A stretch of DNA of 64,000 nucleotides from positions 1,922,001 through 1,986,000 of the forward strand of contig NC_015726.1 in the NCBI RefSeq assembly GCF_000219215.1. The letters are read 5' to 3'. Position 1 is the first letter of the stretch. Every line of letters begins with the position of its first letter. The DNA comes from Cupriavidus necator N-1. GTDB taxonomy: Bacteria > Pseudomonadota > Gammaproteobacteria > Burkholderiales > Burkholderiaceae. Under the pieces are notes generated by a model. The model had not been told where the DNA came from. It worked only from the letters and a program-made list of their open reading frames with translations, and made no database searches. Of this stretch, positions 50,324 through 53,150 are shown one piece after another. Made by a program: the position numbers and the translations under genes.

Positions 50324-50809
50324 TCAGTGGTGCATGCCGCCGCCATGAAAGCCACCATGCGAGCCACCATGCGAGCCACCTCCACCCCCACCGTGGAACC
50401 CCCTATGGAAACCGCCATGGGAGCCGGAATGAAAGCCGCCATGGAAACCACCACGAACGATCACGCCCGGCCTGCGGACGAACACATGGTGCATATGGTG
50501 GAAGTGATGGAAGCGGTCAACAAAGATCACGCTGGCACCAAAGCCCACGCCGACCGGCGCCCAGTACCAGGGATCATAGTAATAGGCCGGGGCCGCATAG
50601 GTGACCACCCCGCTTGCTCCGTCGACCAACTGCCACGTCCCGTCCGGCTGCAAGCAAGCCACCCCCGAGATCACCTGCAGCACGCCGTCAATCTCGGCCT
50701 GTCCAACCACTTGCTGGCAGGGCGCCGACACCAGTTCCTCGGCCGGCGCCGCCACGCCAAAGCTGAGGCCTGCGCACACGGCCGCTGCGGCCGCCAAAAC
50801 CTTGCCCAT
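50324..50809 (-). CDS. Exported Gly/His-rich protein
   Basis: A 161-residue protein with a signal peptide ending near residue 22. The middle region (CQQVVGQAEIDGVLQVISGVACLQPDGTW) recalls the CxxPDGxW pattern of small bacterial surface proteins. The tail is rich in FHGG, SHGG and HH, with about 25 histidines, and could bind metal. The DNA of the tail is a run of degenerate repeats. Start 50809 (MGKVLAAA) begins the signal peptide. A copy of the same promoter-like element that precedes the sigma gene operon lies at 50895-50926. Confidence 0.75.
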   Translation of the reverse strand: MGKVLAAAAAVCAGLSFGVAAPAEELVSAPCQQVVGQAEIDGVLQVISGVACLQPDGTWQLVDGASGVVTYAAPAYYYDPWYWAPVGVGFGASVIFVDRFHHFHHMHHVFVRRPGVIVRGGFHGGFHSGSHGGFHRGFHGGGGGGSHGGSHGGFHGGGMHH

Positions 50810-50894
50810 GATTGTCACCCTGACCTCAAAGTCCCGACGTATGTCCTCGCGGAGCGCATGGCACATCGGTTTGCCGCCGGCCCGCACTGCATGA

Positions 50895-50926
50895 AGTAAA
50901 CGGATTAGCGGCACGTTTTATTCCAC
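50895..50926 (-). promoter_or_regulatory. ECF-type promoter element, copy 2
   Basis: On the minus strand GTGGAATAAA, 15 bases, GTTTACT. The element is identical in both boxes and in spacing to the one at 52531-52562. It lies 86 bases ahead of the Gly/His-rich protein start codon. GGAATA and GTTTAC as -35 and -10 elements with a 17-base spacer are plausible for an ECF sigma factor. Confidence 0.65.
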
Positions 50927-50944
50927 AGGCGGTGAGGTTGCGCC

Positions 50945-51718
50945 TCACTGCCATCCCTGCGGATTTCCGCCCACGCTGCTGCAGACGTCCATCGCGATCT
51001 CGCGCAGGCGCGGCTCGCTGCGCTGGCCCGAGAGCGCGTAACCGGCACCCGCGCTGGCCCAATAGAACGTGCGCCGGTCCTCCTGGCGCAGCAAACGGAA
51101 GGAGGCGTGCTGCGGCGCAGCCTCGGTGATATACAGCGTGAGGCGCCTGCCCGCCTGGTTCTGATACATCAGCTGTGCCGCCGGGCCGGCCGCGCCGGGC
51201 AAGAGCCGCCCACCCATCAGCGTGTAGCCGTATTCGTTCAGCGCTGGAATCGTCAGCGTGCGCGCCAGCCGGCGCGACAGCCACTCCACCAGGTGCGCCT
51301 GATCGGTGGCAGCCACTTCTACCGGGTGGCGCTGCTCCGGCGCGTAGACCGCGTAGGCAAGGTCGGCATGGCGGGAGAAAGCCCAGGGATCGGCCTCGCG
51401 CGCCGACAGCCACACGCCGCCGGTGCCGAGGATCATCCCCGCGCCGGCCCAGGCCAGCGCAGCCGACACGCGCCGCCACCACGTACGGCGCGGCAGCACC
51501 AGTACATAGCGCACATCCGTCGGCAACGGAAACAACGACCTGAGTGCGGCACCCTGACGCCGGTAATCCTCCACACGTGCGGAGGCCTGTACATCGTGCG
51601 CCAGCGCGGCCGCGACCTCGGCCTGCTCGTGCGGCGCAAGCTCGCCATCGACCAGAGCCGAGAGCCGCTCCAACTCCGGGCCTGTCGTCAGCGCGGTGGA
51701 ACTTCGATCATCAGTCAT
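50945..51718 (-). CDS. Anti-sigma factor (RsiW-like, membrane-anchored)
   Basis: A 257-residue protein. The N-terminal 80 residues (ELERLSALVDGELAPHEQAEVAAAL) form the sigma-binding anti-sigma domain. One transmembrane segment follows (about 95-112, ALAWAGAGMILGTGGVWL), then a periplasmic part of 140 residues with PAAQLMYQNQAGRRLTLYI. Its start overlaps the sigma gene stop as ATGA (51715-51718). It should hold the sigma factor at the membrane until a signal arrives. Confidence 0.85.
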   Translation of the reverse strand: MTDDRSSTALTTGPELERLSALVDGELAPHEQAEVAAALAHDVQASARVEDYRRQGAALRSLFPLPTDVRYVLVLPRRTWWRRVSAALAWAGAGMILGTGGVWLSAREADPWAFSRHADLAYAVYAPEQRHPVEVAATDQAHLVEWLSRRLARTLTIPALNEYGYTLMGGRLLPGAAGPAAQLMYQNQAGRRLTLYITEAAPQHASFRLLRQEDRRTFYWASAGAGYALSGQRSEPRLREIAMDVCSSVGGNPQGWQ

Positions 51719-52236
51719 GGCCTCTGCCTCACGACTTTGAAAATCCCGGGCCGGCTTCCAGCATCGCTGCCGAGCAGCACGCGCAGGTGCTCGCGTGCCC
51801 GCGACAGCCGCGACATCACCGTCCCCACCGGCACCTGCAGGATGGCGGCAGCTTCCCGGTAGCTCAGCTGCTCCAGCGTCACCAGCAGTAGCACGTCGCG
51901 CTGCTCCAGCGGCAGGCGGTACAGCGCGCGCTGCAAATCGAGCAGCAGCAGCCCACCGACCTCCCCGACCGGCGCTTCCAGCCTCTGCCACACAGGGTCA
52001 TCGGCATCAAGCGCTAGCTCGCGGTGCTTGCGCAACTGATCGATATAGAGGTGACGCAGTATGGTCATCAACCAGGCGCGCGTATTGCTGTGGGCGCGCA
52101 GCATCGAGGTGCGCGCGAGCGCGCGCTCGAGCGTGTCCTGCACCAGGTCATCCGCCCATGCGGCATCACCCGTCAGCGCGCGCGCGTAACGGCGCAGCTG
52201 CGGCAGGCAGGCGGCGAGGTCGTCGCGCAAGCTCAC
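51715..52236 (-). CDS. ECF-type RNA polymerase sigma factor
   Basis: A 173-residue extracytoplasmic-function sigma factor. Region 2 reads LPQLRRYARALTGD to LVQDTLERAL and NTRAWLMTILRHLYID. Region 4 reads LPLEQRDVLLLVTLEQLSYREAA and VPVGTVMSRLSRARE. The start is taken as the GTG at 52236, with GAGGAG 11 bases upstream; the longer in-frame reading would overlap the lipoprotein gene. It is translationally coupled to its anti-sigma factor. Confidence 0.88.
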   Translation of the reverse strand: MSLRDDLAACLPQLRRYARALTGDAAWADDLVQDTLERALARTSMLRAHSNTRAWLMTILRHLYIDQLRKHRELALDADDPVWQRLEAPVGEVGGLLLLDLQRALYRLPLEQRDVLLLVTLEQLSYREAAAILQVPVGTVMSRLSRAREHLRVLLGSDAGSRPGIFKVVRQRP

Positions 52237-52273
52237 CGGGATGGATACTCCTCGGGCTGGCGGCCAGGACCAA

Positions 52274-52432
52274 TTAGTAGCCGCCGCGATACATTGCGCC
52301 GCCAGAGCTCCGGCTACTGCCACTGCGAGATGAGGACGAACCGCCCGCCGGATCCGTGCCACTGTCGGTGGAGCACGCCGCCACCGCCATCATGGCAAGC
52401 AGCAGGCCAGAAATCAGATGGGGCACTTTCAT
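52274..52432 (-). CDS. Small lipoprotein, 52 residues
   Basis: The peptide begins MKVPHLISGLLLAMMAVAAC. This is a signal peptide with the lipobox VAAC, so C20 would be lipidated. The mature part is 33 residues, rich in Ser and Gly, and ends AMYRGGY. A GGAG box lies six bases before the ATG. It is the first gene after the ECF-type promoter element and ends 38 bases before the sigma gene. Its role may be sensing or simply to be an output of the sigma factor; nothing in the sequence decides. Confidence 0.7.
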   Translation of the reverse strand: MKVPHLISGLLLAMMAVAACSTDSGTDPAGGSSSSRSGSSRSSGGAMYRGGY

Positions 52433-52530
52433 TTCAGTCTCCAGGAGGCAGGCCGCGGCGCAGCATTCTCCACGTCGGGAACGCCGCGCCCGGGCAGCGC
52501 GATGTTGCTGCCGCCGGAGCCTGTCAACTG

Positions 52531-52562
52531 AGTAAACGCGCCGCGGCGGCGCTTTATTCCAC
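52531..52562 (-). promoter_or_regulatory. ECF-type promoter element, copy 1
   Basis: On the minus strand GTGGAATAAA, 15 bases, GTTTACT, identical in both boxes and in spacing to 50895-50926. It lies about 100 bases ahead of the lipoprotein start and would drive lipoprotein, sigma and anti-sigma genes. Autoregulation by the encoded sigma factor is the simplest reading. Confidence 0.65.
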
Positions 52563-52643: not shown

Positions 52644-53150
52644 TTACTTCAGCCCCAGATAGTCGCGCTTGCCGATCTGCACACCCTTATGGCGCAGGAT
52701 GTCGTAGGCCGTGGTCACGTGGAAGTAGAAATTGGGCAGCGCAAAGCCCAGCAGGTAGGACTTGCCGTCGAACGTCATCGGCCCCTGGCGCAGCTTCAGC
52801 TCGATCGCGCGCTGCTCGCTGCCTTCCAGCTGCTCGGGCGCGATCTGCTCCAGGAACACGATGGTGCGGGCGATGCGGTCCTGCAGTTCGGCAAAGGTGG
52901 TTTCGGTATCGGCGAACGACGGCACCTCGATGCCTGCCAGCCGCGCGGCACAGCCCTTGGCGGCGTCGCTGGCGCGCTGCACCTGTGCCGGCAGCGCATC
53001 CATGTCGGCGATCAGGCGGGTCTGGATCAGGTCGGCCGGGTCCATGCCCTGCGCCTGGGCGTGGGCCGCGCCCTTGTCCAGGATCTCGGCCAGGTTGGCG
53101 AGTGCGCGGATGAACGGGGGAATCGAAACGTCGTACATCGAGAGTGCCAT
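52644..53150 (-). CDS. DUF1993 family protein
   Basis: A 168-residue helical protein that matches the DUF1993 pattern: SMYDVSIPPFIRALANLAEIL, DMDALPAQVQRASDAAKG, TFAELQDRIARTI and FALPNFYFHVTTAYDILRHKG. The histidines suggest a DinB-like four-helix fold, but the function is unknown. Start 53150 gives the family N-terminus. Confidence 0.85.
   Translation of the reverse strand: MALSMYDVSIPPFIRALANLAEILDKGAAHAQAQGMDPADLIQTRLIADMDALPAQVQRASDAAKGCAARLAGIEVPSFADTETTFAELQDRIARTIVFLEQIAPEQLEGSEQRAIELKLRQGPMTFDGKSYLLGFALPNFYFHVTTAYDILRHKGVQIGKRDYLGLK

Follow-up and report, generated by a model that had tools for sequence, protein, structure and literature searches.

The regulators closest to the locus described here are the ECF26 sigma factors of S. 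meliloti. RpoE6 belongs to this group, and the activation mechanism of the S. meliloti ECF26 sigma factors is termed hypothetical in the part of PMC6180224 that was available. A table in the same part gives GGAATAAA-N15-GTCTTA as the promoter of the SMc01418-rpoE1-ecfR1 operon. According to the available part of PMC3511301, SMc01418 carries a 'lipoprotein 15' motif and may take part in the control of RpoE1, and the promoter use of RpoE1 and RpoE4 overlaps. Activation by sulfite-generating compounds is a trait of the rpoE1/rpoE4-type ECF26 systems.

The window analysed here, a 64-kb stretch of the Cupriavidus necator N-1 genome, carries on its minus strand four genes in the order lipoprotein (52 aa), ECF sigma factor, anti-sigma factor and Gly/His-rich protein (161 aa), accompanied by two copies of one element. 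The features of this module are:

52531..52562 (core 52533-52560), minus strand: element 1, predicted ECF26-type promoter of the lipopeptide-sigma-anti-sigma operon (exact match; conservation)
52274..52432, minus strand: tiny predicted lipoprotein of 52 aa (open reading frame; lipobox-like Cys at residue 20, Ser/Gly-rich tail, Gly-Gly-Tyr end)
51715..52236, minus strand: ECF sigma factor of 173 aa with a GTG start and regions 2 and 4 (Pfam PhyR_sigma2, Sigma70_r2, Sigma70_r4_2)
50945..51718, minus strand: membrane anti-sigma factor of 257 aa (N-terminal anti-sigma domain, one TM-like helix, periplasmic domain)
50895..50926 (core 50897-50924), minus strand: element 2, predicted ECF26-type promoter of the Gly/His-rich gene (exact match; conservation)
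50324..50809, minus strand: likely exported Gly/His-rich protein of 161 aa (signal-peptide-like start, 37-member alignment)

A longer, GTG-started reading frame for the last gene (50324-50914) would overlap element 2, and a signal-peptide-like stretch follows the ATG at 50809, so that this ATG is the likelier start. A DUF1993 gene (52644-53150, minus strand; PF09351, E 2.7e-64) immediately precedes element 1 on that strand. No DUF1993 match was seen among the displayed parts of the relatives' loci, and the gene is probably outside the module.

The element, GTGGAATAAA-N15-GTTTACT, occurs twice as an exact match on the minus strand, at 50895-50926 and 52531-52562. Both copies agree at 17 box positions and in the 15-base spacing, and their spacer sequences are unlike, which confirms the pair as it had originally been reported, and 100 shuffles returned 0 matches. 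Element 1 ends 98 bases ahead of the lipopeptide ATG, and element 2 starts 18 bases past the anti-sigma gene and ends 85 bases ahead of the ATG of the Gly/His gene. The core GGAATAA-N16-GTWTA has three sites in the whole 8.48 Mb genome, against about 0.12 expected from the base composition of the window and none for the reversed pattern. All three are at ECF26 loci, namely elements 1 and 2 and a third site, on the same contig, before a paralogous operon. A chance repeat or a simple duplication of the element was rejected on the grounds of the shuffles, the differing spacers and the core being kept in relatives.

Assignment of the module to ECF26 draws on the sigma factor, the promoter and the gene order. 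The only sigma regions with a Pfam match in the protein are sigma2 and sigma4. In a quick tree, in which the genome's own ECF sigma factors were limited to those passing a filter (30 loci looked at), the module sigma, its paralog, S. meliloti RpoE6 (taken to be this sigma from its divergent S8 peptidase gene), a Sulfitobacter RpoE4-type sigma (linked to sulfite oxidase) and two plasmid sigmas formed one set with an SH-aLRT of 98. Seven other ECF sigma factors of the genome fell outside this set, and a third own ECF sigma was its sister at 86. Both module elements match the ECF26 promoter type GGAATAAA-N15-GT with equal spacing. Like SMc01418-rpoE1-ecfR1, as far as the available text on that operon goes, the module combines an exported first gene, a sigma factor and an RsiW/COG5662-like anti-sigma factor with an autoregulated promoter and a small regulon, these last two being predictions for the module. 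Together, the tree, the promoter and the gene order identify the module as an rpoE1-type ECF26 operon whose first gene is different and which has a Gly/His target in addition. SMc01418 is a Lipoprotein_15 repeat protein, whereas the first gene of the module encodes a tiny tyrosine-tailed lipopeptide, and the RpoE1 targets given in the available parts of PMC6180224 and PMC3511301 include no Gly/His-rich protein, unlike the module. The original prediction had known of no described system with this gene set. That holds for the Gly/His-rich target and the tiny lipopeptide, which were not found in the available text of the papers searched, but not for the order of exported-protein gene, sigma gene and anti-sigma gene or for the promoter type, both of which the available parts of PMC6180224 and PMC3511301 describe for ECF26. 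PMC9045368 makes no mention of RpoL, RpoM, RpoQ or the element motif, and Brucella BcrS was set aside as a counterpart because its -35 and -10 boxes differ in the available part of PMC8315932.

The paralogous ECF26 operon lies outside the window (C3:3539334-3542361) and consists of a Lipoprotein_15 gene, a sigma gene and an anti-sigma gene behind the third copy of the element. Its sigma factor is 53% identical to that of the module over 154 residues and its anti-sigma factor 36% identical. The two operons share the element and its spacing, but the paralogous one begins with Lipoprotein_15 (PF03640, E 2e-36) and has no neighbouring Gly/His gene, none being found in the 8 kb around it. By map order, we take this operon (C3:3540k) to be probably of the type named rpoL in C. 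metallidurans. The module had originally been called self-contained, a description that does not stand, since a second ECF26 operon bearing the same element makes cross-talk likely, and the two sigma factors probably cross-activate. In the same genome, a third and more distant ECF operon near C3 1878660 is preceded by GGAATAAA-N15-GTTTT, with GGAATAAA-N15-GTCTT about 1.3 kb beyond, a two-element layout similar to that of the module.

Conservation was assessed in 81 loci, comprising the window and the best 80 of 186 named relatives of the sigma clade found with two peptide patterns. As the original prediction would have it, the element is kept in relatives: the 1.2 kb upstream of the sigma gene contain GGAATAN-N16-GT in 79/81 loci (the misses being L200 and L207), compared with 1/81 for the reversed pattern and 0/81 for the opposite strand. 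A Gly/His gene is adjacent downstream in 32 of the 81 loci and missing from that place in 46 of the 78 that could be assessed. The element stands between the anti-sigma and Gly/His genes in 27 of these 32, and the reversed-pattern and opposite-strand controls each gave 0/32. In the five without an element of their own, the Gly/His match begins 54-197 bp past the anti-sigma match. Gly/His adjacency occurs on both sides of the deepest split of the midpoint-rooted tree, as does the full layout. What relatives keep of the element is chiefly GGAATA and, in the -10 box, the GT, after which T/A is usual; the outer GT and the final CT are not kept. Many loci of Paraburkholderia have GGAATAA..GTTAA or GTTAT as the operon element and GGAATAG..GTTTA as the Gly/His element, so recognition of the two may be unequal and vary by lineage.

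A second set of 148 genomes, partly overlapping with the first, was examined for the Gly/His gene itself. The gene is present in 22 genomes, N-1 included, and is preceded by the element in 19 when the best match per genome is taken (the misses being L065, L067 and L070; two weaker extra matches, L071 and L072, both without the element, are uncounted). For 13 of the 21 copies in relatives, no module-like sigma gene lies within about 5 kb in either direction; 12 of these unlinked copies have nevertheless retained the element, several with a GTATA -10 box. One further copy (L074) sits at a contig edge with part of an anti-sigma gene and also has the element. The persistence of the element after unlinking is, within these sequence comparisons, the strongest sign of trans regulation of the Gly/His gene. 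Three of the 13 genomes have a module-type sigma elsewhere (63-88% identical). In the remaining 10 the only sigmas are 42-55% identical to that of the module, and another ECF26 sigma factor, most simply of the paralog type, is thus the likelier activator there.

Across 18 genomes of a Cupriavidus-genus set, the core has 87 sites compared with 3 for the reversed-pattern control. Downstream genes were read by eye for 28 of the 87 sites and comprised this Gly/His family (5), a second Gly/His-rich family (5), a YceI-like gene (5), another sigma gene (4), the Lipoprotein_15 operon (3) and other or unclear cases (6). The second Gly/His-rich family, unrelated-looking and with a signal-like start, is preceded by the element in its 5 congener loci; its homolog in N-1, at C3:580642, lacks both the element and a His-rich stretch. 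The YceI-like lipocalin genes also lie behind the element in 5 congener loci (one was checked: PF04264, E 3e-27), and the available part of PMC9113575 connects a YceI lipocalin of B. cenocepacia with defence against lipid peroxyl radicals. In the 4 congener loci with another ECF sigma gene, the element has a GTATA box, which hints at a sigma cascade.

Judging from these patterns, both elements very likely serve as promoters recognised by the ECF26-group sigma factor whose gene lies between them, and this factor would transcribe its own operon and the Gly/His gene. That one ECF sigma drives both, as originally proposed, is supported as a prediction by the 79/81, 27/32 and 12/13 counts. A possibility that we take seriously while tending against it is that one or both elements respond chiefly to the paralogous sigma factor (C3:3540k, of the Lipoprotein_15-type operon) and not to the module's own, or that the two sigma factors share them. 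Its own operon has the same core with the same spacing, the promoter use of RpoE1 and RpoE4 overlaps in S. meliloti (PMC3511301, available part), and, among the 13 genomes with an unlinked Gly/His gene, the 10 that lack a module-type sigma have only ECF sigmas with 42-55% identity to it. Nine of these 10 carry a core element some 0.5-1 kb away from a sigma gene of the paralog type (50-55% identical). In the module, however, the two elements flank its own sigma gene, and the clade keeps this full layout on either side of its midpoint split.

The genes of the module are all on one strand, and expression of the Gly/His gene could come mainly by read-through from the sigma operon, leaving element 2 as a minor or relict promoter, an arrangement with which the five of 32 closely following Gly/His matches lacking their own element agree. 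We consider it improbable, as element 2 is kept in the other 27 and read-through cannot account for the element at 12 of the 13 unlinked copies. It is more improbable still, to a degree that makes it a very remote candidate, that a repressor or activator binds the elements and that they are not sigma-factor promoters. Their bipartite form and their conservation would fit such binding, but their -35/-10 layout and 15-base spacing equal those of the S. meliloti ECF26 promoter (PMC6180224, available part) and the element accompanies ECF26 operons at 79 of the 81 loci. Two promoters read by the sigma factor encoded between them is the reading retained below.

The AF2 model of the anti-sigma factor has helices at residues 13-62, a TM-like helix at 80-100 and a periplasmic domain at about 140-250, the layout of ECF26-type anti-sigma factors (N-terminal anti-sigma domain, one TM helix, periplasmic C-terminal domain). 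The protein is 26-36% identical to three alphaproteobacterial anti-sigma factors and one from Acidovorax. A zinc-binding anti-sigma factor was considered and not adopted, the zf-HC2 matches being weak (22 of 24 anti-sigmas at E up to 1). For the periplasmic domain, a fold resembling the C-terminal domain of RseB/MucB is predicted (RseB residues ~211-315). This likeness comes from the predicted fold: a genome search with PF17188 (RseB C-terminal) left the anti-sigma gene unmatched, the 24 anti-sigmas gave no match to it either, hhalign returned nothing between the anti-sigma factor and the genome's own RseB, which is encoded by a separate gene at C3:2528554, and a search of its profile against solved structures gave none that convinced, with one weak, unrelated-looking match. 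In having a membrane anti-sigma factor and, by the model, an RseB-like periplasmic fold, the module resembles E. coli sigmaE and P. aeruginosa AlgU with their RseA-RseB and MucA-MucB pairs. It differs in that its sigma factor belongs to another ECF group and that the RseB-like domain would be fused to the anti-sigma factor itself.

The Gly/His-rich protein comprises a short two-Cys beta domain, a Tyr/Trp stretch, a His cluster and a Gly/His tail, and all 16 of its His residues are within the last 66 positions. An alignment of 37 members (the protein of the window and 36 of the 120 listed homologs) showed invariant C31 and C52 as well as conserved YYYDPWYW, FVDRFHHFHHM and Gly/His tail. By source name, the homologs, 120 of 250 being listed, come from Cupriavidus, Ralstonia, Paraburkholderia, Caballeronia and Trinickia. 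The family shares a short two-Cys stretch and a QPDG(T/S)W motif with the 17 kDa outer-membrane surface antigen family (PF16998), but adds the His cluster and the Gly/His tail. PF16998 matches weakly in 13 of the 37 members at E up to 1 (best E 2.8e-4) and gave no match for the module's own protein. A fold search with the model (pLDDT 56) yielded no match at E 0.001, and the family profile none that convinced among solved structures. From its composition, the protein would likely buffer metal ions or oxidants.

The tiny, predicted tyrosine-ended lipopeptide is what appears to be new in the module. Lipopeptide genes were sought by a signal-like start and a Ser/Gly-rich end, tyrosine not being required, and one such reading frame was found in each of 67 of the 81 loci, with predicted lengths of 43-64 residues. 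All 67 end in tyrosine (GGY 56, GSY 10, SGY 1); the Ser/Gly filter removed three other reading frames, in loci that also have a tyrosine-ended one. The Tyr codon in the 56 GGY genes is TAC in 42 and TAT in 14, and, as the codons for the Gly-Gly-Tyr end and the stop codon vary among loci, the constraint is on the protein. A loose lipobox pattern matches 66 of the 67. Six of these 66 (L182, L183, L195, L198, L199, L211) have lost the Cys from its usual position and show an AxA-like site there, which makes their lipidation unsure. None was found in the other 14 loci, suggesting that the lipopeptide is not universally needed.

The first gene of the module has no Pfam match to Lipoprotein_15. A Lipoprotein_15 gene, recognised by motif with two Pfam-checked, occurs in 24 of the 81 loci, beside the lipopeptide in 11 and alone in 13, and one locus (L180) has neither. 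On the midpoint-rooted tree the lipopeptide and Lipoprotein_15 labels need four changes. The lipopeptide is present on either side of the deepest split, and the 24 loci with Lipoprotein_15, most of them from Caballeronia, group together as one set. Descent of the lipopeptide from a decayed Lipoprotein_15 gene was discarded because both genes adjoin in 11 of the 81 loci.

The C-termini of outer-membrane proteins bind the PDZ domain of DegS. Additionally, Muc/Rse PDZ proteases have been assayed with a YVF peptide agonist, as stated in the available part of the source. By analogy, the C-terminal tyrosine suggests, as a speculation, that the lipopeptide may be read by a protein that binds free C-termini. 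Taken as a whole, a fuller joint reading is doubtful, in which the Gly-Gly-Tyr end, carried on a lipid-anchored Ser/Gly tether, would bind the PDZ domain of a site-1 protease or the RseB-like domain of the anti-sigma factor, so that the operon would encode its own trigger or brake of the envelope-stress response, with the anti-sigma factor as a one-protein RseA-RseB and the Gly/His-rich protein as a surface or periplasmic sink and dedicated output.

What is directly seen is that the repeats are exact and conserved in many relatives, together with the gene order and the phylogeny of the sigma factor; from this we infer how the module may work. In unstressed cells, the sigma factor would be held at the membrane by the anti-sigma factor, whose RseB-C-terminal-like periplasmic domain would sense envelope stress. 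The anti-sigma factor would then be removed, probably via regulated intramembrane proteolysis, and the released sigma factor would transcribe from both elements, amplifying itself and yielding the Gly/His protein, a likely buffer of metal ions or oxidants located in the periplasm or else on the outer membrane. The lipopeptide, as the first product of the operon, would likely feed back on the anti-sigma factor or its protease through its C-terminal tyrosine. For the proposal as a whole, including two promoters, one sigma factor and the steps of stress release, we estimate a probability of about 0.82.

The type of regulator is already known as ECF26, and a lipopeptide-first operon with a Gly/His target is a new version of it and not a new kind. 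The module is compact, occurs in many Burkholderiaceae and represents a predicted two-promoter regulon. It offers two handles on the activation of ECF26 sigma factors, the fixed C-terminal tyrosine of the lipopeptide and the putative sensor domain, RseB-like in its predicted fold, that would be fused to the anti-sigma factor. Additionally, it puts forward uncharacterised Gly/His-rich proteins as a recurring output of ECF26 regulation.
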